The notes below the pieces were generated by a model. That model worked only from the letters and a program-made list of their open reading frames with translations, was not told where the DNA came from and searched no databases. From positions 1 through 24,421 of the IMG/VR virus record IMGVR_UViG_3300037488_000914: a DNA stretch of 24,421 bases; one strand, 5' to 3'. Source of the stretch: a virus. Position numbers and translations under genes: made by a program. Positions 3,350 through 22,610 of the stretch are shown one piece after another; position 1 is the stretch's first letter; each line of letters begins with the position of its first letter.

Positions 3350-4174
3350 ATGCTGCAAAATAAATATTCAAAACATTATTGGTTATTGATAGAAAAAGCC
3401 AAGAACCGTGAAGTTCCAGCCGGTTATGTAGAAAACCATCATATTATACCCAAATCATGTGGTGGGGCGAATACATTAGACAATTTGGTTCACTTGACGG
3501 CCAGAGAACATTTTGTGGCCCATTTGCTGTTAACTAAGTGTTATGATAGTGTGGAACGCGGAAAAATGTTTTGTGCCTTACACTACATGGTTCATGGTCA
3601 ACAAAAGAAATATCATCAAATAAATTCTAGATTATATGAATATTATAAAAATGGTATTTCAATAACCGTTTCACAGGTTCACATGGGACGAAAGCGTTCA
3701 GAAGAAACAAAAAAGAAAATGCGAGATAGGTGGTCAACCCCGGAATTTAGAGACAAGATGTATAGATCACGGGTTGGAAAAAAACATTCAGAAGAAACAA
3801 AAAAGAAAATGTCGAAATCTATGAGAGGACTAAAACGTTCAGAAGAAACAAAAAAGAAAATGTCGAACTCCTGGACCAAAGCCCGTCGACTAAAACAATC
3901 AAATCGTACCATATCAAAAAAAACTCGAGATAAATTGTCAAACTCCCTCATGGGACACGTACTTTCTGAAGAAACTATAAACAAAATCAGGGAAGCTCAT
4001 ATTACCAATTTTTATAAAATACAATGTCCAGATGGTAATATAATCAAGATTTATAATTTACGAGATTTCTGCCGACGACACCCAACTATAAATCGGGCAA
4101 ATTTGCGCGGCACAATAACAGGCCGATATAAACATTCCGCTGGATTTAAAATTTTAGAAATAGGTAAAATATGA
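3350..4174 (+). CDS. HNH homing endonuclease with NUMOD3 repeats
   Basis: A free-standing homing endonuclease of 274 residues. The N-terminal HNH nuclease domain has NHHIIPKSCGG (residues 29-39) followed by NTLDNLVHLTAREHFVAH, the usual layout of phage HNH proteins. Residues ~112-220 hold repeated DNA-binding modules of the NUMOD3 type (GRKRSEETKKKM, GKKHSEETKKKM, GLKRSEETKKKM and a weaker LSEETINKI copy), which grip the target around the cut site. The C-terminal ~50 residues are a further basic region. The stop overlaps the start of the tail gene at 4171 in an ATGA, so the two are translationally coupled. It sits between a late promoter and that structural gene, which marks it as an insertion of a selfish element. 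No SD is seen before its ATG. Confidence 0.88.
   Translation: MLQNKYSKHYWLLIEKAKNREVPAGYVENHHIIPKSCGGANTLDNLVHLTAREHFVAHLLLTKCYDSVERGKMFCALHYMVHGQQKKYHQINSRLYEYYKNGISITVSQVHMGRKRSEETKKKMRDRWSTPEFRDKMYRSRVGKKHSEETKKKMSKSMRGLKRSEETKKKMSNSWTKARRLKQSNRTISKKTRDKLSNSLMGHVLSEETINKIREAHITNFYKIQCPDGNIIKIYNLRDFCRRHPTINRANLRGTITGRYKHSAGFKILEIGKI
3697..3862 (+). repeat. Three identical 25-nt repeats inside the HNH gene
   Basis: A 25-nt unit occurs without change at 3697-3721, 3787-3811 and 3838-3862 (spacings of 90 and 51 nt, both multiples of three). It encodes the SEETKKKM core of the NUMOD3 modules. A decayed fourth copy follows near 3965. Because silent positions are also identical, the copies look recently duplicated or homogenised. 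Confidence 0.85.
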
Positions 4175-4713
4175 CAGTTTCAAATATTAATTTCTTGAGC
4201 CAATTCGGGTTTCGTCTAGTTATAGCTAGATTGCCAGAAATCGAATATTTTCTTCAAAGGATAAATCTGCCTGGACTTAATCTTCCGGCGGCTACAAGAG
4301 CTACGCCCTTTGCATCACCCTTAGCATATCCCGGCGATATCAGTTTTAACGATCTAACATTAAGTTTCAAGATAGACGAAGATATGAAAAATTATCTTTC
4401 GATTTGGAATTGGATGGTGCAGCTGGGATTTCCACAGAACTTCAATCAATACAAACAAATTGCGACACGCAATACAGCATTGCAAGCATTTGAAGAGGGT
4501 GAAGTTACCAGCAACATTCGATTGATTGTTCTTGACAACAAACATAACTGGAATTACGAAATCGAGTTTACGTCGTGTTGGCCAACAAGTCTTAGCGATT
4601 TAAATTTTGGAAGTACAGACCCTTCAGTACAATATCTGACTGCGGAAGTTACGTTCAAATATCATTACTATACTATTACACCGAATACAGAAGCGTTACC
4701 CTGTCAGAGATAA
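4171..4713 (+). CDS. Tail-tube-fold structural protein (second gp19-like protein)
   Basis: A protein of 180 residues. It opens with a segment (FGFRLVIARLPEIEYFLQ) followed by INLPGLNLPAATRATPF and GDISFNDLTLSFKIDEDM, then a Trp-rich segment (YLSIWNWMVQLGFP). This pattern is known from tail-tube-like proteins of T4-type aquatic phages. The DEDMKNY segment corresponds to the NDEDFSVR region of the bona fide gp19 in this window (18338-18931). It could be a baseplate-proximal tube initiator (gp54- or gp48-like role) or a minor tube protein; sequence alone does not decide. It is translated from the HNH message by ATGA overlap and is encoded on the opposite strand to the main tail module. A gene follows convergently after 3 nt. 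Confidence 0.65.
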   Translation: MTVSNINFLSQFGFRLVIARLPEIEYFLQRINLPGLNLPAATRATPFASPLAYPGDISFNDLTLSFKIDEDMKNYLSIWNWMVQLGFPQNFNQYKQIATRNTALQAFEEGEVTSNIRLIVLDNKHNWNYEIEFTSCWPTSLSDLNFGSTDPSVQYLTAEVTFKYHYYTITPNTEALPCQR

Positions 4714-7735: not shown

Positions 7736-7743
7736 AATAAATA
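7736..7743 (+). promoter_or_regulatory. Late-promoter-like AATAAATA for the fibre genes
   Basis: AATAAATA, one mismatch from TATAAATA, lies 27 nt before the first fibre-like ATG (7771), with an AAGG SD in between. The same AATAAATA variant precedes gp22, gp19 and gp18 here. Confidence 0.45.
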
Positions 7744-7770: not shown

Positions 7771-8373
7771 ATGTCTGCACAACGACTAGGTTCAATATTA
7801 ACTAACATAACAGGCACGAGTGGTCAGATTTTGCGTGTTAATACGGCAGAAACTGGATTTGAATTTGTGTCTCCACCAGTAATGCCAGTTTATACAATCA
7901 CTAACGATACTACAGATCGTATCATAGACGCCAATAACTCAAATTTAGACGAATTGTCAGATGTGCTCAGTACACTAATTAAAGATGTTAATACAACTTA
8001 TATCGGCGCGGGGGGCATTTCCCCCTTTACTTGGTCGACGTCGGAGCAGACTTGGCCATTTGAGAAAGGGCCAAGTGGCGAAACCCTATATGCTAAAGAA
8101 ATTAGTTTAGGAGCCTTGCCAAATAGCGGAGAAAAAGATGTCGCTCATGGTATAAGCAATTTTAATGCTGGTGATGACACGTTTTTCCTCAACGTTCACA
8201 TGAGAGTAAGTTCAACTGTTTGTAGACCCCTGCCATATTGTTTAGTCGACAATTCACAACTATCTGGCCAAATTTGGGTTGGCATCTATAGCACGTATAT
8301 TTTTATTCTCGATGCCGTAAATTATTCATCGTATACTGCGGTTGCACGAATTATATACAAAAAAAGTGGTTAA
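7771..8373 (+). CDS. Fibre/adhesin-like structural protein, paralog 1 of 3
   Basis: A protein of 200 residues. The N-terminal block (QRLGSILTNITGTSGQILRV and on to ETGFEFV) resembles short modules common in phage tail fibres, where GTSGQVL-type strands precede a distal domain. TITNDTTDRIIDAN, WSTSEQTWPFEK, a LPNSGEKDVAHGISNFNAGD segment and the C-terminal IYKKSG are shared with the next two genes. The LPN...VAHGI segment is typical of C-terminal fibre domains. The region just before IYKKSG differs most from the paralogs (VCRPLPYCLVDN). Host recognition or a decoration role is inferred. The gene is on the plus strand, opposite to the head and tail module. Confidence 0.6.
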   Translation: MSAQRLGSILTNITGTSGQILRVNTAETGFEFVSPPVMPVYTITNDTTDRIIDANNSNLDELSDVLSTLIKDVNTTYIGAGGISPFTWSTSEQTWPFEKGPSGETLYAKEISLGALPNSGEKDVAHGISNFNAGDDTFFLNVHMRVSSTVCRPLPYCLVDNSQLSGQIWVGIYSTYIFILDAVNYSSYTAVARIIYKKSG

Positions 8374-8392
8374 TTTTAAACAAAGGTAATTC

Positions 8393-8986
8393 ATGGCCGC
8401 GCAACGATTAGGTTCTATATTAACGAATGTAACTGGTACTAGTAAACAAGTGCTCCGAGTTAATGCAGCTGAAACCGGTTTCGAATTTGTATCGACTGGT
8501 AGTTTACCAACATATACAATTACAAACGATACAACAGATCGCATTATCGATGCCAATGATGTAACGTTAGATAAATTTTCAGACGTTCTTTGCACAACAA
8601 TCAAAGATATTGGTACAGTATATAGTGGAGGTGGCGTAAGTACATTCCAATGGTCTACTTCAGAACAAGTTTGGCCTTTTGAAAAAGCCAGTGGTGGGGC
8701 AACTCTCTACTGTAAAGAAGTAAATTTTGGCACACTACCGAACGCAACAACCAAAAACGTAGCACACGGAATTAGCAATTTTAACGCCGGTGACGATTTA
8801 TTTTTTATGAACGTTATTCGCAAAGTAAGCACAACACGATATATACAAATTCCATGTCCAAGACCAGATAATATGGCCTATCAAGCTTACGCAGGGGTGG
8901 ACAGCACAAACATTAATATCTGGAATGGATACGACATGTCTTCTGATACAGCTATTGTTAGACTTATATACAAAAAAAGTGGTTAA
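8393..8986 (+). CDS. Fibre/adhesin-like structural protein, paralog 2 of 3
   Basis: A protein of 197 residues, a close paralog of its neighbours. Conserved blocks are residues 3-33 (QRLGSIL to EFV), 41-55 (YTITNDTTDRIIDAN), 85-98 (FQWSTSEQVWPFEK), 114-131 (TLPNATTKNVAHGISNFN) and the IYKKSG end (192-197). Residues 145-180 are divergent (STTRYIQIPCPRPDN). It starts 19 nt after paralog 1, behind a leader with an AAAGG SD that is nearly the same as the leader of paralog 3. This suggests that gene and spacer were duplicated together. There is no signal peptide or membrane segment. Confidence 0.6.
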   Translation: MAAQRLGSILTNVTGTSKQVLRVNAAETGFEFVSTGSLPTYTITNDTTDRIIDANDVTLDKFSDVLCTTIKDIGTVYSGGGVSTFQWSTSEQVWPFEKASGGATLYCKEVNFGTLPNATTKNVAHGISNFNAGDDLFFMNVIRKVSTTRYIQIPCPRPDNMAYQAYAGVDSTNINIWNGYDMSSDTAIVRLIYKKSG

Positions 8987-9006
8987 TTTTTAAACAAAGG
9001 TAATTC

Positions 9007-9603
9007 ATGTCTGCTCAGAGATTAGGTTCAATACTTTCCAATGTTACAGGAACCAGTAAACAAGTATTTCGTGTTAATACAAGCGAGACTGGATTTGAAT
9101 TAGTCACGCCTGCCACTCTGCCAACCTATACTGTAACCAACGATACTACAGACCGTATCATAGATGCCAATAATGTTAATATTGATAAAGCTTCAGATGT
9201 TCTTAGTACGTTGGTTAAAGATGTAACAGCCATTTATAATGGAACGAGTGGATCGTCGACATTTCAATGGTCAACCAGCGAACAAGTGTGGCCTTTTGAG
9301 AAGGCATCTGACGGTAGTACATTATACGCTAAGCAGATTAATTTTGGCAGTTTGCCCAACAACGGTCAAAAAAATGTTGCTCATGGTATAAGTAATTTTA
9401 ACCCAGGCAATGATACATTTTTTATGCACGTTTTACGAAAAGTTAATTCAATATATTTTATACCAATACCATCAGCAAGATGTGATAATATTGTTATTCA
9501 AATACAGGCAGAAATAAATGGAGCAAATGTAGCCATTTATGATGGTTATGATGCATCGGCGCAATCTGCAATCTTTAGAGTAATATATAAGAAAAGCGGA
9601 TAA
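9007..9603 (+). CDS. Fibre/adhesin-like structural protein, paralog 3 of 3
   Basis: A protein of 198 residues with the same block order as paralogs 1 and 2: QRLGSILSNVTGTSKQV, TVTNDTTDRIIDAN, FQWSTSEQVWPFEK, a LPNNGQKNVAHGISNFN segment, and IYKKSG. Like the others it is most different near residues 145-185 (SIYFIPIPSARCDN and IYDGYDASAQ). By eye it is closer to paralog 2 than to paralog 1 in the middle region. It begins 20 nt after paralog 2 and is followed by hairpins and a terminator at 9602-9660, so it closes the rightward unit. All three may form hetero- or homotrimers; that is inference. Confidence 0.6.
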   Translation: MSAQRLGSILSNVTGTSKQVFRVNTSETGFELVTPATLPTYTVTNDTTDRIIDANNVNIDKASDVLSTLVKDVTAIYNGTSGSSTFQWSTSEQVWPFEKASDGSTLYAKQINFGSLPNNGQKNVAHGISNFNPGNDTFFMHVLRKVNSIYFIPIPSARCDNIVIQIQAEINGANVAIYDGYDASAQSAIFRVIYKKSG

Positions 9604-9630: not shown

Positions 9631-9643
9631 ATTCGAAAACAAA

Positions 9644-9660
9644 GGGGGCATAAAGCCCCC
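9644..9660. terminator. Bidirectional intrinsic terminator between fibre genes and capsid gene
   Basis: GGGGGC (9644-9649) pairs with GCCCCC (9655-9660) over an ATAAA loop. On the minus strand the stem is followed by TTTGTTTTC, a good U-tract for ending the capsid transcript. The plus-strand tail (CTTGTC) is poorer. It lies between the convergent ends at 9603 and 9690 and is GC-rich in an AT-rich genome. Confidence 0.75.
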
Positions 9661-9689
9661 CTTGTCATTCATATGTTGAATTTATTATA

Positions 9690-10976
9690 TTATAACAAAT
9701 TCAAGACCTTAACACGTCTATAGTAAATATTAGTATTAACAGTTAGCGATCCATCGCTATTACCGTCAACATTACTAAACGGATTAGCCACAATTCCATA
9801 TCTGGTTTTGAAGCCGATCTTCGGTTGGAAGGTCGCAGGATCTAATGCTTTTACAAGCTGTAATGGAATGTAAGGACAATAGAAAATACCTGCATCATAG
9901 GCGTTTTTACCCTTATAACCAACCACGTAGAAATTATCATTGGTGGTGGAAACATAAGGATCGATATAAACATCTAAACGACCATTCAAACGACCGACAA
10001 AGGTATTACCAGTGTCGTCAACAGAGAGTTGGTCTTTCAGATGATCGCCGTAATCAAGTAAGCCAGCCATTGACAAGGCGCTCGCCACATCGCTAGATGT
10101 TAGCAATACATTGCCCTTTCCACGTCTGGTTTCTTTTGCGATTTGGTTAGCGTCGCGTTCAATCTGGAACATAAGTCCCTTGAACTTCTCAACCAACCAA
10201 CGACCATTCGAGTCAATATCTAAATCAAATGAACCAGGAACGGTTACATTATTCTGGGCACCAGCAACGGCGCACATATAGATAGTACGAATGACTTCGC
10301 GATTAATTTCGGCATTGATTTCAGCTGACAAGATGTTAGCTAACTCGGACTCGGCATCGAGGCCATGAATAGCTTTCAAATCTTGCTGTAATTCAACGGT
10401 GAATTCAGCTTTCAAAGCACGGGTCTTAGCAGTTACGCTAATACGATCAATCGAGAACGCCATTTCTGGAATAGCGGTCGGATTACCTAATTGCTCACCA
10501 ACTGCGGCAGCTAAACCACGACCGGTGTTTAACGCTGGATCATTTGGATCAAGCGGCAAAGTGTGGGTGCCAGTTCCCGAAAAAGCCGTATCAGCTTCCT
10601 TGAACAAGGCTTCTTGCCCGTTCTGTGCGCTATAACGACTCTTCAAGGCGAAAATCAACCCAACTGGAGCGTTCATCGGTTGTACACCGCAAAGATCAAA
10701 CGCGATCAGGTTAGGCATCATACGGCGGACCATGGCGATTAGCACTGGATCATATCCCTTCAAATTGGCATTACCGTTATAGGTAACCCCAGCGCCTACT
10801 TGGTTTTGGATCGTTTCCACTAGCATACCATCGGTGTTGGCTTCTCTCAACGCTTTTTCTTCGTTTTCAAGAAGGACAGCCGTGACCGCTTTGCGGAAAG
10901 GATCATTAATCTTCCCAATCTCAGGGCTATCTAATAGTTGGCCCCATTTCTTGGAAAGGTTGTCGATATTATACAT
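9690..10976 (-). CDS. 23: Major capsid protein (T4 gp23-like)
   Basis: A protein of 428 residues (T4 gp23 has 521). The signature PNLIAFDLCGVQPMNAPVG is nearly identical to the T4 segment PNLIAFDICGVQPMNSPTG. The N-terminal ~54 residues correspond to the scaffold-binding propeptide. LVE at 52-54, followed by Thr-55, fits the T4 prohead protease rule (Leu/Ile-x-Glu) and sits at the position of the T4 cleavage site; LLE (35-37) is another candidate. It forms the hexamers of the capsid. It starts 19 nt after the gp22 stop behind a strong AAGGAG SD, so it is translated from the gp22 message. A terminator follows at 9644-9660. A gp24-like vertex protein is not seen in this window. Confidence 0.95.
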   Translation of the reverse strand: MYNIDNLSKKWGQLLDSPEIGKINDPFRKAVTAVLLENEEKALREANTDGMLVETIQNQVGAGVTYNGNANLKGYDPVLIAMVRRMMPNLIAFDLCGVQPMNAPVGLIFALKSRYSAQNGQEALFKEADTAFSGTGTHTLPLDPNDPALNTGRGLAAAVGEQLGNPTAIPEMAFSIDRISVTAKTRALKAEFTVELQQDLKAIHGLDAESELANILSAEINAEINREVIRTIYMCAVAGAQNNVTVPGSFDLDIDSNGRWLVEKFKGLMFQIERDANQIAKETRRGKGNVLLTSSDVASALSMAGLLDYGDHLKDQLSVDDTGNTFVGRLNGRLDVYIDPYVSTTNDNFYVVGYKGKNAYDAGIFYCPYIPLQLVKALDPATFQPKIGFKTRYGIVANPFSNVDGNSDGSLTVNTNIYYRRVKVLNLL

Positions 10977-12406: not shown

Positions 12407-12414
12407 TATTTATT
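12407..12414 (-). promoter_or_regulatory. Late-promoter-like AATAAATA for gp22-gp23
   Basis: AATAAATA on the minus strand in the gap between gp21 and gp22, with a predicted leader of about 43 nt. It would drive high late expression of scaffold and capsid. Confidence 0.5.
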
Positions 12415-16781: not shown

Positions 16782-18287
16782 TTATCTCCAAATATATACT
16801 AAATTACCACAATCAAAAAGTTTATAAAATCCGTGTTCTTCCATCATTTGAAATTCTGTTTTATTGTCATCATAATCATCAAACAGTTTTTTAAGTTTAT
16901 GTTTCTGAAACTTGTTCCGTGACATTAACTTTAAATCATTTTCATGATAATAAAAATAATTAGAGGTAGTTTTGTGAGATAGAACAAAACCAATTGCGTT
17001 ATACATTTTTCCAGTAGAGAACCTTCTGTCAGCATACGATACTACACTTTTCGGTTGATATTTATTAGTATAATATTTAAATAGTTTTGAAGCTCCACCA
17101 ATTACAGTTGTATATATTTTATTACAGAATCTAGTTAATTCAATATCGCACGATTTTAAAAATCTTGGCTTAGCAAAACACATCACCGCTACAATTTCAT
17201 TATTATACTTTAGCGCCAAATTAACACTAGAATTCATTACGCCTTGACGATGGTTTTGTTCTAAAAATAAATTGGCTTCTTTAGCCTTAATTTCCACAAC
17301 TTGGCACTCTCGGCCATATAGGCGCTCTTTGAATATTCCAAGATGTGCGGCTATGATAGATTTACAGATTTCTTCTTTGAGCAACCATTCATTTTCAAAG
17401 AACTGTAGAATTTTAATACCCTTTTGTGTACATTGTTCTAATTTATGCAATTGGCCTTCTTTGTCGTTTCGGTGCCAATAGCAGCCATTGTATTCAATTG
17501 CAAGTTTTCTTTCTGGTAAATATATGTCAAGTTCTTTTGGACTTATAATAAGTCGCGTGTTCTCTTGAACTTCTCCAGAATATATAGATTTGATATAGTC
17601 AACTATTTGTTTTTCTTCTTTTGAAATTTTACAATAATTGTTTGTTGGTACATTATATCTTTTACATAGTTGGTCAATAAGAGCAGACGATACTCCATTT
17701 TCTTGAGCAATGACAGTATGCGGCTTTTGATTCACGACGTGTTCGGTATATAAAAGATCTCTATTAAATTTATCCGATATCTTGGGCACTTTGGCCCGCT
17801 CTTCTCTATATTTTTTAGACTGAAGATATGAACAATGCCCGTATTTTTCTTGACACGTTTCTTTGATTTTCTGTTTAGTAATATCTAATAAGTTTGGATT
17901 TTTAACGCCGTATTTTTCTAAACAGGTCTGTTGAGCTTTTTGTATCTTTAAAGAATCTTTATTGACACAATCTGACGAACAATACACGTTAAATACTTGA
18001 TTAACCCTCGAAAATCTTACTGGGTTTCCACACACCTTACATTTTGGCTGTTCTTTGATATCATTTAGTATACAATATACCCGAATGCGAATTGAAGAAT
18101 TTTCTGGTAAAAAGTTGGTATTGTTAATTATGTCATGATATATATTTGTCCAATTTCTTTTTTCCCACCAATCGATACAACAAGCCCGCGCATTAAATTT
18201 GTCATTTGGATTAATCAAAAGAAAACGAATATTTGTTAGAAACGTTTTCAAATCAAAAAATAGTTTATTGTCACATTGCATAGTCAT
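16782..18287 (-). CDS. Vsr-like (EDxHD-type) homing endonuclease
   Basis: A protein of 501 residues. There is an N-terminal zinc finger (CKVC at 83-86, then C103 and C107) and two YG-type DNA-binding repeats (CLEKYGVKNPN and CQEKYGHCSY, 122-153). A helix-turn-helix-like segment follows (TVIAQENGVSSALIDQLCKRYNV). The nuclease core is KELDIYLPERKLAIEYNGCYWH (251-272), with Glu, Asp and His as in very-short-patch-repair-type homing enzymes such as I-Bth0305I. A C-terminal domain carries GGASKLFKYY, SYADRRFS and FQKHKL, frequent in phage Hef-like endonucleases. It interrupts the conserved gp19-gp20 order, has its own TATAAATA at 18330-18337 and a hairpin before its start. The start is MTM (second ATG two codons on). 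Confidence 0.8.
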   Translation of the reverse strand: MTMQCDNKLFFDLKTFLTNIRFLLINPNDKFNARACCIDWWEKRNWTNIYHDIINNTNFLPENSSIRIRVYCILNDIKEQPKCKVCGNPVRFSRVNQVFNVYCSSDCVNKDSLKIQKAQQTCLEKYGVKNPNLLDITKQKIKETCQEKYGHCSYLQSKKYREERAKVPKISDKFNRDLLYTEHVVNQKPHTVIAQENGVSSALIDQLCKRYNVPTNNYCKISKEEKQIVDYIKSIYSGEVQENTRLIISPKELDIYLPERKLAIEYNGCYWHRNDKEGQLHKLEQCTQKGIKILQFFENEWLLKEEICKSIIAAHLGIFKERLYGRECQVVEIKAKEANLFLEQNHRQGVMNSSVNLALKYNNEIVAVMCFAKPRFLKSCDIELTRFCNKIYTTVIGGASKLFKYYTNKYQPKSVVSYADRRFSTGKMYNAIGFVLSHKTTSNYFYYHENDLKLMSRNKFQKHKLKKLFDDYDDNKTEFQMMEEHGFYKLFDCGNLVYIWR

Positions 18288-18337: not shown

Positions 18338-18931
18338 TTATAAGATTGGTCGCGGATCGTCCGTTTCTGTCTGAAAGTAATCATACATCAAGGTGCATGT
18401 AAATTCTTCAATTGTGTCGTTTGTGTCCCAAGCCAAGTCTATCGCCGATACTTCTGAAGGATACATACCAATAAATTTATACCTAGCAATCACCTCACCC
18501 TTTTTATCATAATGAACCACAGAGGCGTCCCTCTTATACGAGCTACCGGGGTTGTCTGCGACAATATTATATGGAACCACGCGTATGTTTTCGTTATGAA
18601 GGTTAATCTTGTTATTCCACGTCTCAAGTGCCCGGCGAACGCTAAAGTCTTCATCGTTCAGTATGGTAACAGTCCATTCAGCAAAAGTTCTATCACCAGC
18701 AACCTTAATCTTGCGACCAAAATAAGGAACCTCAATTGTTCCTACCGTCATCGCTGGAATACTGGCAGCACGACAAGTAAAAGTTAACTTGGTTTCGCTA
18801 GGCGCACCGGGAAGGGTCGCCTCTCCATTAGACATCAAATCAAGTTGTACCCGGAACAAGTTCGGCCTTGCGCCACCTGCCGCAAAGTTTTTCTTGAAGT
18901 CTTCGATATTAAAAGAATATTTGTCAACCAT
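18338..18931 (-). CDS. 19: Tail tube protein (T4 gp19-like)
   Basis: A protein of 197 residues (T4 gp19 has 163). It forms the hexameric rings of the inner tail tube. FAAGGARPNLFRVQLD corresponds to the T4 FESGDFARPNLFQVEI segment. FTCRAASIPAMTVGTIEVPYFGRKIKVAGDRTFAEWTVT is the core of gp19 (T4: FQCKATALPAG and NRKINVAGDRTFDDWTVT). LNDEDFSVRRALETW and MYPSEVSAIDLAWDTND follow as in T4. Extra length comes from the N-terminus and a short insertion. A strong AAAGGAG SD precedes the ATG and a late-promoter-like AATAAATA is at 18952-18959. It follows the sheath gene by 26 nt. Confidence 0.94.
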   Translation of the reverse strand: MVDKYSFNIEDFKKNFAAGGARPNLFRVQLDLMSNGEATLPGAPSETKLTFTCRAASIPAMTVGTIEVPYFGRKIKVAGDRTFAEWTVTILNDEDFSVRRALETWNNKINLHNENIRVVPYNIVADNPGSSYKRDASVVHYDKKGEVIARYKFIGMYPSEVSAIDLAWDTNDTIEEFTCTLMYDYFQTETDDPRPIL

Positions 18932-18951
18932 GTGGGTTCTCCTTTAGAAAT

Positions 18952-18959
18952 TATTTATT
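18952..18959 (-). promoter_or_regulatory. Late-promoter-like AATAAATA for gp19
   Basis: AATAAATA on the minus strand overlapping the sheath stop codon, 20 nt before the gp19 ATG. It would give a short leader that keeps the AAAGGAG SD. Confidence 0.5.
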
Positions 18960-20859
18960 AAAACTTTCCAACAACTTCTTCAAATGCAACACCGGTTCTA
19001 ACTGCGATGAAGTTCAATTGAATGAAATTGATAGAACGCGCTGGCTTAATGTAAATATCACCAACAAACTGATTGCTATCAATAATTTCTGGTGTATTGT
19101 TTGTTGCATCACAAACAACCCTGAAATCATATACGCCTCGGCCAGCCTTCACTTGTCTCAGATATGGCTCAACCATATTCTTGAATGATGCACGGGTGAA
19201 ATCGTCATTGAACTCAAACAGCAAGAATCTAGCTGCCAGAGCAATAGCCTTTTCAAGCACGATGAACAATCTACGAACGTTAATACGATCAAATGCACTT
19301 GGTTTACTTAATAGAGTTTTGTCACCAAAGAGCACGATGCCCTGACCCGGTAAAGAAACCACTGGGTTAACGTTGTGCATGTACAGATCGTCTCTATCAG
19401 CCTTGTCAGGATTATAAGCCAACTTGATGGCATTTTTAATCTGACCGCGATTCAAACCGGCAGGCGACCACCAAGGATCTCTTTGAGTGTCGGTTCTAAC
19501 ACAAAGCCCGGCGATGTCACCATTCAACGGAACCCAACGATAGGTATCATTGTACTTGTCGTACATATACTTCCAGTTGTTGTCCATGACGGCATAAGAA
19601 GTCGAGATTTGAAGATCTTCGCGATCTAGCAAAACTGATGTTAGAGGATCTTGCTCACCAACTACGGAATCCATTTTTGGTGAAACAAGTGCAATACAAT
19701 CTTTGCGGCTTTCGCAGATGTTATTAATAACGTATCTTGCTACATTGGTGCTATAATTCGCCAACATTACAAGAGCAACATCTACCAATTCTGCATTCGC
19801 AAACATATCGTATCCACTCTCCACATCGCCATCGGTCGGAGTGCTATCAGCACCACTGCCAGCGGCGAACTGTTCGGTGATTGGAGCGGCATCAATAAAC
19901 GCAGTTGTCGGATCAGTGTTTGTTAAAGCAGCAGGAACGTTCGAATCGATTGTATTTTCCAAAATGCGAACATAGCGCGATTTTTGATTCAAAACATTGA
20001 CCCAATAATTCCCAGCACCATCTTCTTTCTTAGCCGTAGTAACCTTTGACATGAAAGAATATTTCTCGAGAACTTGGCCCTTCAACCCAGAAACCTTTCC
20101 AACGCCATCAATCACTACTGCGTGAATTTCGTCGTTGGTTCCGCCAGCATTTTCGATATAAGGCGAAGTCGATGGAGCAATACCAAAAACCTCATAATAT
20201 TCCCATCGGAACTGTACGCTGCTACCAAGAGCAATATACGGAGTCGCAACAGCAGAATCTAGTTGCCACTCGGTTGCGGAAACTCTTGCAATGATAGTTC
20301 GTTCAACAGTAGCACCACTAACCGTGGCCGTCATTCTAGAACCAACAGCAAGAAAATCGTCTGCACCAGCCGCAAAAACAATTTTATCAGCTTCACCTGA
20401 ATTTTTTGTCTCAACGTTTGTTACAATAGTTTTGAAAGCTTTAGCAGATGGACAAATAGAAATTTTAAATCCATCGCCAAATGATCCAGGATATCTTGCG
20501 CACGATACATCAGAAATACCAAAAGGACCTGCAATTGCAAAGTCGCTGTCGTTTTTAACTAGAATCGTACCAGAAGATTTATTGGCATTCTTAGCATCGG
20601 ATTTAATAACGCGAACAAGCCGCAATTTATTTCCATATGCCAAAAAGCTTGCTGATGTAAACCATACAGCAGCATTATCAGTATCTGGTCGACCGTACGA
20701 AGAAACGAGTTCATCTTCAGAACTAACTAAAATTATTTCATCGCATGGACCCCAACGAAAATCGCCCACTATTGCGCCGTCAGTTGTTGATACGGCAGGT
20801 ATGATAGTAGTTAAATCGATTTCGGTAACATTTACGCCTGGACTAAGTGAGAATGCCAT
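18958..20859 (-). CDS. 18: Tail sheath protein (T4 gp18-like)
   Basis: A protein of 633 residues (T4 gp18 has 659). It forms the contractile sheath around the gp19 tube. It begins MAFSLSPGVNVTEIDLTTII with VSTTDGAIVGDFRWGPCDEI, the standard N-terminal strand-exchange segment. In the C-terminal half, RWVPLNGDIAGLCVRTD, DPWWSPAGLNRG and FDRINVRRLFIVLEKAI with a FEFNDDFTR segment are hallmarks of contractile sheath proteins. The middle (about 100-350) is variable and likely the surface-exposed domain. A GGAG SD precedes the ATG and a late-promoter-like site lies at 20916-20923. Confidence 0.95.
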   Translation of the reverse strand: MAFSLSPGVNVTEIDLTTIIPAVSTTDGAIVGDFRWGPCDEIILVSSEDELVSSYGRPDTDNAAVWFTSASFLAYGNKLRLVRVIKSDAKNANKSSGTILVKNDSDFAIAGPFGISDVSCARYPGSFGDGFKISICPSAKAFKTIVTNVETKNSGEADKIVFAAGADDFLAVGSRMTATVSGATVERTIIARVSATEWQLDSAVATPYIALGSSVQFRWEYYEVFGIAPSTSPYIENAGGTNDEIHAVVIDGVGKVSGLKGQVLEKYSFMSKVTTAKKEDGAGNYWVNVLNQKSRYVRILENTIDSNVPAALTNTDPTTAFIDAAPITEQFAAGSGADSTPTDGDVESGYDMFANAELVDVALVMLANYSTNVARYVINNICESRKDCIALVSPKMDSVVGEQDPLTSVLLDREDLQISTSYAVMDNNWKYMYDKYNDTYRWVPLNGDIAGLCVRTDTQRDPWWSPAGLNRGQIKNAIKLAYNPDKADRDDLYMHNVNPVVSLPGQGIVLFGDKTLLSKPSAFDRINVRRLFIVLEKAIALAARFLLFEFNDDFTRASFKNMVEPYLRQVKAGRGVYDFRVVCDATNNTPEIIDSNQFVGDIYIKPARSINFIQLNFIAVRTGVAFEEVVGKF

Positions 20860-20915
20860 TTTCTATCTCCTATAATAAAAAAGACTTTAGAATCTTTCGT
20901 CATTCTATACATCTT

Positions 20916-20923
20916 TATTTATT
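20916..20923 (-). promoter_or_regulatory. Late-promoter-like AATAAATA for gp18
   Basis: AATAAATA on the minus strand within the 87-nt gap between gp17 and gp18, leaving a leader of about 50 nt. Confidence 0.5.
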
Positions 20924-20946
20924 AAAAGCAAAAACTTCACAAACTA

Positions 20947-22596
20947 TTATCGTTCTTTGTCCTGGGGAAATAACCAGGCCGATTCGGAGACTATATACAA
21001 ATCTCCAGGTTCCAACACTTCCATTTGATTTAAATTGCTCTGATGGTCGTCTACTATAACAAAAGGTATATCCTTAAAGACTTCCTGTTGATTCGCAACC
21101 AAAGATTCCCTGATATTACTATTAGTTAGGTCTTTGAAATTCTTTTGGTTTGATAACCAGCCAAATAAAACCAGTGTCATTACTAAATCGTCATTGGTGC
21201 CAGAATCTCCCGCGAATGAGCCAAGTTTTGATACAAAGGTTGTCATTTCAGAAATAGTATCAAAATCAGTAACTATTAATTGATCATTTTCGATCAACGT
21301 CTTAAGGTTTACACACCCGATATTCTTAGTTTTTTTGGTTGTCATCACACCAATTTTACCCTGAGAAAACGACATTTCTTGTGTTGAAAGTCTAGTATTT
21401 TTAACAGTGTATATAAGATTTTCATATTCTAATTCATACTTTAAAGCATCAGCCACTTGAGAACCAGCGTCGTTGGTTTCAATTAACAACCAAGCATTAT
21501 TATATTTTTGACCAATTTCAGCAATAACATTTGGAAAAATTAGCGGTGGAATTTTGTTTGAACGATATTTGGCTACAAATTTAAATGGTAGCTGTGTCAC
21601 GTCAATAATCGACATCACAGAAAAATCGTTAGCATCACCGCGAGCAACATCAACACATGCAACATAGGTGTGTTTAGGTTGTGGTTTTTCGTAAACATCT
21701 AAACATTCCTGTGAATATGTTGGTTGTTGGAAAACCAAATTTTTAAGTTTCGAACTAGCAATTAAAGTGTTACTAACTGAACCGAAAAAGGAGCAGCCAT
21801 ATTCTTGATCGAAAGCTTCAGCACCTATGTTCCTAATCGTTTCGTCGCGCCATTTGTCATCTCTTCCTGGAACTTCACTCCAGTGCATTGTGAAAGGCAC
21901 GTACCGATTCTGTTTTTTCTCAGCTTCAGTCCAGAGCTTATAAAATAAATTTACACCCTTTGGAGTTGATACAATAATAATTTTTGTTGTGGTTCCTGCC
22001 GTAATTGTGGGATAGACCGATTTCATAAAATCGTCTGACACATTGTTGTGGACATGTGCAAATTCATCTAGTACAAGACAATTTATACTTCCAGATCGCC
22101 CAGTTGAACCCGATGTAGAATCAGATGAAATTTTTGAACCATTCTCTAATTCAATCGACGATTTATTCCACTCGATGACACCTTGTTGAATCCACTTAGG
22201 TAAATTTTCATATGCCAATTTAACACGATATAAAATTTCTTTAGCTGTTTTATTCCTATTAGCTAAAACAACAATGTTTTGACTGTCTTTAAATATTGAT
22301 AACCACAGCACATAACCCACGTAACTAATTGTTTTTCCAATCTGTCTTGGACATAACATAATCGAAAATCGATTATCGTTGAAATTGCGAATCATTTTTT
22401 CTTGATATGGTCGTAATTGACACTGAATCAATCCTGCATCAAGATTAACAATTTTAAGATAATTGTTAATAAAATATATGGGATCTTTTGAACATTTAAG
22501 AATTTCTTGTATCTGTTCCGCAGTAAAGTCAAGCTTCACTCCCGCTTTTTTCAGTCGCGGGTTGGCTAAATATGTCGATTTAAAAAGTGATGTCAT
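20947..22596 (-). CDS. 17: Terminase large subunit (T4 gp17-like)
   Basis: The DNA-packaging ATPase and nuclease, 549 residues (T4 gp17 has 610). LRPYQEKMI (61-69) is the adenine-binding-like segment. Walker A is LCPRQIGKT (81-89), Walker B CLVLDEFAHV (173-182) and the coupling motif VSTPKG (209-214). The C-terminal RNase-H-fold nuclease begins with VACVDVARGDANDFSV (312-327) carrying the first catalytic Asp, and LLIETNDAGSQVAD supplies the next acidic residue. The N-terminus is shorter than in T4. It lies 27 nt after gp16, as in T4. A TATAAATA at 22603-22610 is only 6 nt from this ATG. Confidence 0.96.
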   Translation of the reverse strand: MTSLFKSTYLANPRLKKAGVKLDFTAEQIQEILKCSKDPIYFINNYLKIVNLDAGLIQCQLRPYQEKMIRNFNDNRFSIMLCPRQIGKTISYVGYVLWLSIFKDSQNIVVLANRNKTAKEILYRVKLAYENLPKWIQQGVIEWNKSSIELENGSKISSDSTSGSTGRSGSINCLVLDEFAHVHNNVSDDFMKSVYPTITAGTTTKIIIVSTPKGVNLFYKLWTEAEKKQNRYVPFTMHWSEVPGRDDKWRDETIRNIGAEAFDQEYGCSFFGSVSNTLIASSKLKNLVFQQPTYSQECLDVYEKPQPKHTYVACVDVARGDANDFSVMSIIDVTQLPFKFVAKYRSNKIPPLIFPNVIAEIGQKYNNAWLLIETNDAGSQVADALKYELEYENLIYTVKNTRLSTQEMSFSQGKIGVMTTKKTKNIGCVNLKTLIENDQLIVTDFDTISEMTTFVSKLGSFAGDSGTNDDLVMTLVLFGWLSNQKNFKDLTNSNIRESLVANQQEVFKDIPFVIVDDHQSNLNQMEVLEPGDLYIVSESAWLFPQDKER

Positions 22597-22602
22597 TACA
22601 AA

Positions 22603-22610
22603 TATTTATA
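22603..22610 (-). promoter_or_regulatory. TATAAATA immediately before gp17
   Basis: A perfect late-promoter core, but only 6 nt before the gp17 ATG, so transcription would start at the start codon. It is either a leaderless arrangement or a chance match in AT-rich DNA. Confidence 0.3.

Follow-up and report, generated by a model that had tools for sequence, protein, structure and literature searches.

The question raised by this locus is what kind of protein is encoded by three tandem genes lying beside the gp23 gene of a T4-like virus, and what the differences between the three copies mean. The whole stretch of DNA analysed (hereafter the window) is a virus record of 24,421 bases, a fragment of a T4-like virus of bacteria. 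PHROG matches were obtained for UvsW, UvsY, a tail-tube-like protein, PhoH, dCMP deaminase, gp23, scaffold, protease and portal proteins; terminase, sheath and tube genes at 18338-22596 were named by inspection of the open reading frames. The nearest relatives of the window gp23 are those of Pelagibacter and Methylophilales myophages, with 57-59% identity. A second tail-tube-like protein is encoded at 4171-4713 on the plus strand (phrog_45, 1.5e-34), separately from the gp19-like ORF at 18338-18931, and ORFs resembling homing or HNH-type endonucleases were seen by inspection amid the structural genes (3350-4174, plus strand; 16782-18287, minus strand). The array of paralogs lies beside gp23 on the opposite strand, as an earlier note on this DNA had stated, with the UvsY/UvsW side on its other flank. 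The evidence set out below makes it likely that the three genes encode short, late-expressed fibre proteins of the virion, each consisting of an N-terminal module, a helical stalk and a C-terminal beta-sandwich, with binding ends that have diverged between the copies.

The positions of the three genes and of the associated elements are listed in Table 1. The genes are co-oriented paralogs of 200, 197 and 198 codons with one block order, which confirms their earlier description, and the proteins encoded by copies 2 and 3 are 63% and 60% identical to that of copy 1. All three ORFs are intact and have their start and end blocks in common. The terminal IYKKSG, previously described as invariant, is found in the three window copies, but the copies of the relative described below finish in IYAK. 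P1-P3 had no match in Pfam at E<=1 and none in NCBIfam, and matches in PHROGs were marginal only. Searches of cultured-phage records by tblastn gave a best E of 0.01 for P2 and of 10 for P3, which amounts to no match, and weak partial matches only for a copy from the relative. No relative was found in the genome contigs searched, nor by sequence in the PDB.

Table 1. Features of the paralog array and its surroundings, in window coordinates.
Feature	Position	Strand	Remarks
AATAAATA, T4-type late-promoter-like motif	7736-7743	+	Some 28 bp ahead of copy 1
Copy 1 (P1), fibre-like, 200 aa	7771-8373	+	N-terminal module 1-38, coil module ~39-75, C-terminal beta domain ~85-200
Junction 1/2: last P1 codons, spacer, P2 start	8351-8395	+	Equals junction 2/3 save one inserted T
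Copy 2 (P2), fibre-like, 197 aa	8393-8986	+	P1-type architecture; C-domain model pLDDT 93
Junction 2/3: last P2 codons, spacer, P3 start	8964-9009	+	Near-identical to junction 1/2
Copy 3 (P3), fibre-like, 198 aa	9007-9603	+	P1-type architecture
Terminator-like G+C hairpin, between P3 and convergent gp23	9642-9663		Consensus match only
gp23 major head protein	9690-10976	-	phrog_138, E 1.8e-142; convergent neighbour of the array

Profile comparison and structural modelling show that the C-terminal domain (C-domain) of these proteins belongs to a widespread family of phage fibre ends. Carriers of the domain were collected with a degenerate DNA pattern for G-x-LPN-xxx-K-x-VAHG-I, which matched 115 viral DNA stretches. 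In nearly all of them the C-domain, which belongs to tail and fibre proteins of uncultured phages and has the consensus YSTxExxxGxWxDGxxxYxKxIxFGALPNxxxKxVAHGI, makes up the final ~110 residues of the chain, and most carriers have N-termini unlike those of the window copies. A dereplicated viral profile of 90 sequences matched P2 (2.5e-19), P3 (1.3e-17), P1 (3.3e-16) and R1, a copy from the relative described below (4.4e-12), the best of 1000 shuffled copies against the same profile reaching 0.019. The match covers residues ~98-197, the end strand included, and R1 was matched by the profile even though the VAHGI portion of the motif is absent from it. With the motif masked as a guard against circularity, P1, P2, P3 and R1 scored above every shuffle and R2, the other copy from the relative, did not. 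Pfam, PHROG and NCBIfam contain no model for the C-domain; its region in the other carriers tested had no Pfam match and one weak minor-tail match in PHROGs, and a literature search found no paper describing the domain by its motif. On the three contigs inspected the C-domain gene comes after tail or virion structural genes, including that of the tape-measure protein. A second C-domain protein was present within the fetched flanks of 0 of the 115 stretches, although a search of whole records does show tandem carriers. One protein of 455 aa (L049) has three C-domain copies in a single chain.

For the C-domain of P2 (residues ~85-198), AlphaFold2 with 19 sequences predicted a seven-strand beta fold with pLDDT 93.2 and pTM 0.84; in the full-length model, residues 1-84 are of low confidence. 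Comparison of an earlier full-length model with viral predicted structures by Foldseek gave 16 matches at E<=0.001, among them a collagen-like protein and a tail fibre, and the BFVD matches include small proteins consisting of little but the C-domain. Matches to solved fibre tips were weak, with Z of 4-7 and under the trust level; the best among solved structures, at Z 5-7, were the C-terminal domain of a pseudaminidase, P1 baseplate proteins and the ends of phage or pyocin fibres. In the R-pyocin, the C-terminal domain has a lectin-like beta-sandwich fold and is carried by a trimeric fibre, with AP22 gp53 and the end of the Sf6 tailspike as structural relatives (PMC6116203). The R-type pyocin fibre and AP22 gp53, both with a C-terminal beta-sandwich at the fibre end (PMC6116203), are among the top structural matches of the window domain, but they have no detectable sequence relation to it and Z is too low for a common fold family. 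These matches, 4mtm (Z 5.4) and 6cl6 (Z 5.2), with 87 residues aligned at rmsd 3.6-4.4, are below the trust level, and a PDB search with the 19-sequence profile returned no pyocin or gp53 chain at E<=1. According to the note supplied with the fold tool, a Z under 8 may reflect a common arrangement only, and therefore membership of the lectin-like family is not claimed. The earlier note had regarded an enzymatic fold as incompatible with a fibre function; the fold predicted here is a beta-sandwich, and sequence searches of the window proteins against Pfam, PHROGs and NCBIfam matched no enzyme family.

Scans of IMG/VR with the full protein and with the N-terminal module found a single full-length relative, on contig 3300032053_000260, and otherwise gave only loose fibre-linker matches. 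The two copies of the relative flank a gene for a gp13-like head-tail adaptor (phrog_211, 1.1e-36), in a setting of structural genes and ahead of an interrupted gp17. The C-domain, which ends all three window proteins, is found beside gp23 here and beside gp13/gp17 in the relative. These two copies are 86% identical over their N-terminal and coil parts and 28% identical over the later C-domain. The same contig also encodes a collagen-like protein of 583 aa (PF01391) which begins with the same 38-residue module and finishes with the same coil module. The coil module is also present at the ends of other phage proteins. Looser forms of the N-terminal motif occur within one long, repetitive protein, fibre-like as read from its sequence, and in another whose N-terminus, judged in the same way, resembles that of T7-type tail fibres. 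Copies within each genome are more alike than copies compared between the window and the relative, which points to independent duplication or concerted evolution. By inspection, gp17 of the relative (L001:8250-11524) is apparently split by an insertion that resembles an intein and contains an endonuclease-like ORF.

Gene positions in the two genomes bear on the place of these proteins in the virion, since the hoc and wac slots of T4, taken as analogies, keep a role in head or neck decoration open beside that of a tail fibre. In T4, hoc belongs to an opposite-strand block between gp24 and uvsW, and the window array occupies the corresponding slot, from the gp23 side to uvsW; wac directly precedes gp13 in T4, and one copy of the relative is in that position. 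It is thus possible, though less likely than not, that the paralogs are fibres decorating the capsid or neck, with a role like that of Hoc or the whiskers and no primary role in host choice, and that their diverged ends would allow loose attachment to cells, glycans or particles. However, T4 has a single hoc as compared to three window genes, the window proteins are much shorter than fibritin and have a different C-terminal domain, and for them Pfam (E<=1) and PHROGs gave no Hoc or Ig-like family match, and Pfam, PHROGs and NCBIfam, within the cut-offs applied, no fibritin match. Hoc and fibritin were accordingly rejected as families on sequence and are retained as candidates by role. Furthermore, in the contigs inspected the other carriers of the C-domain lie in tail modules, and the slot of a gene is a poor guide to where its product lies in the virion.

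The differences between the copies are not evenly distributed. Divergence was measured in a five-sequence codon alignment, with invariance counted among the three window copies. Columns 143-195 contain 8 invariant columns of 46 comparable ones, compared to 24/38, 23/37, 40/66 and 7/10 in the other blocks (~62% outside this stretch), and a 40-column window equally poor in invariant columns was produced by 0 of 20,000 column shuffles. These data bear out the earlier observation that the N-terminal and central blocks are kept and that divergence is concentrated toward the C-terminus. The variable part had been placed in the ~35-40 residues before the end; its late C-terminal position is correct, but it spans about the second half of one domain. 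It extends over about 46 columns, indels included, and corresponds to about four strands of the predicted seven-strand beta-sandwich, no small tip loop being involved. Greater variability of the second half was not shown for the C-domain family as a whole (mean 1.97 bits before the motif and 1.93 after it in the 90-sequence alignment), and the contrast is therefore claimed for paralog sets only.

An independent set of this kind was found when the whole records of twelve C-domain carriers were searched for arrays. The unrelated viral contig IMGVR_UViG_3300028591_000118, 122 kb long, contains at least six adjacent or near-adjacent C-domain genes (L144:5811-10574), which provides an array with another copy number, as had been proposed as a check. 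In two pairs from this array the heads, through the GKP-YQ(K/R)T strand, are identical at 46/57 and 50/61 positions, the next 80 columns at only 16/69 and 12/69, after which identity climbs again. The array resembles that of the window in its adjacent C-domain genes, conserved heads and divergent C-domain, and differs from it in having unrelated N-terminal modules and, in some members, extra domains around the C-domain. One member carries PF07484, Phage Tail Collar (4.8e-15), together with a tail collar fibre PHROG. Among the titles listed in literature searches, no paper on this kind of array was found. The occurrence of conserved heads with a divergent domain both in the relative and in the unrelated array supports a scaffold with varied ends. 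Of the original proposal that a common scaffold presents different binding tips, the architecture is thus sustained by the fibre-end family, the predicted beta-sandwich and the recurrence of the pattern, and the different ends are putative binding tips.

The analysis of dN/dS per domain, suggested along with that proposal, gave dN of 0.52-0.76 for the variable stretch, compared to 0.14-0.22 for the N-terminal and coil modules. With pS of about 0.75 across the whole genes, synonymous sites are almost saturated, which indicates that the duplications are old and leaves dN/dS with little power. Positive selection was not detectable, and dN/dS, at <=0.5 wherever computable, indicates relaxed constraint at most. 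These values, with no excess of nonsynonymous change, would also be expected if the ends had diverged by relaxed constraint or drift after duplication and binding had not been functionally diversified. Such an explanation seems unlikely in view of the conservation of the three reading frames, of their common first and last blocks and of the match to the family profile, and in view of the divergence of the same half of the domain in independent sets.

The array had also been explained by duplication of each gene together with its leader. This holds for the two inter-gene leaders, which match each other, but not for gene 1, whose leader is different (AAATAAGGTTCTAAATG). The leader AAACAAAGG is common to both inter-gene junctions only, with TTTAAACAAAGGTAATTCATG at 8375-8395 and 8989-9009, and the spacer sequence is absent from the rest of the window. 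The junctions agree over 45 bases bar the single insertion, though the flanking genes are near synonymous saturation. Of 20,000 codon-block shuffles, 318 gave a single exact run of 23 such as is found at the junctions; this test took that run only and left out a further run of 22 next to it. The identity of the junctions could be due to gene conversion, to cassette exchange or to a local constraint on the leader that binds the ribosome. A more speculative reading, to which we give little weight, is that the array is a recombination cassette in which the near-identical junctions serve as homology for swapping whole fibre genes among related phages; one virion would then have a changeable set of interchangeable tips.

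Late expression of the array is suggested by the motif upstream of copy 1. The window contains 12 sites of WATAAATA, which is the core of the T4-type late promoter, including those at 883-890, 7736-7743, 12407-12414, 18952-18959 and 22603-22610. Their number by itself is not above chance in the window; only their placement before genes is, 9 of the 12 being followed within 65 bp by the start of a gene on the same strand, as compared to 56/272 for permuted motifs (p 8e-5). WATAAATA is likely to be the late promoter of this phage.

The remaining two explanations are of much lower probability. Small genes present in several copies near structural genes might encode fibre assembly chaperones or adhesin caps instead of fibres, but this is very improbable, given that the N-terminal module, the coil and the terminal beta domain are shared with a collagen-like fibre and with tail proteins. 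Least credible of all is that the genes are targets of a diversity-generating retroelement, which could concentrate variation near the C-terminus of a fibre-like protein; this was rejected, as a template-like second copy of the variable region is absent from the window and from the relative contig (both fragments), no reverse transcriptase was recognised among the window ORFs by inspection, and the variation is spread over many columns with indels.

The preferred reading is therefore that of short virion fibres, which are probably trimeric. The N-terminal module of ~38 residues probably docks the fibre to a virion partner, the short helical stalk module probably trimerises it, and each protein finishes in a beta-sandwich of ~110 residues from the fibre-end family. 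Following an old duplication, the base and the stalk remained constrained and the copies diverged in the second half of the end domain. As a result, the phage probably shows several binding surfaces, alternative to or complementing one another, on a common scaffold, and the ligands are most likely host-surface glycans or proteins.

If, as is most likely, the genes encode such fibres, the array is a genuine though rather ordinary means for a phage to vary what it binds. The present analysis describes an array of small fibre genes from a T4-like lineage about which little is known, and connects it with a fibre-end domain that is widespread but for which the libraries searched have no model. Were the C-domain made a named family, many uncultured phages could have their fibre ends annotated. 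Should the cassette interpretation of the junctions be true, they would offer a testable route for gene-by-gene change of the binding repertoire of a phage.
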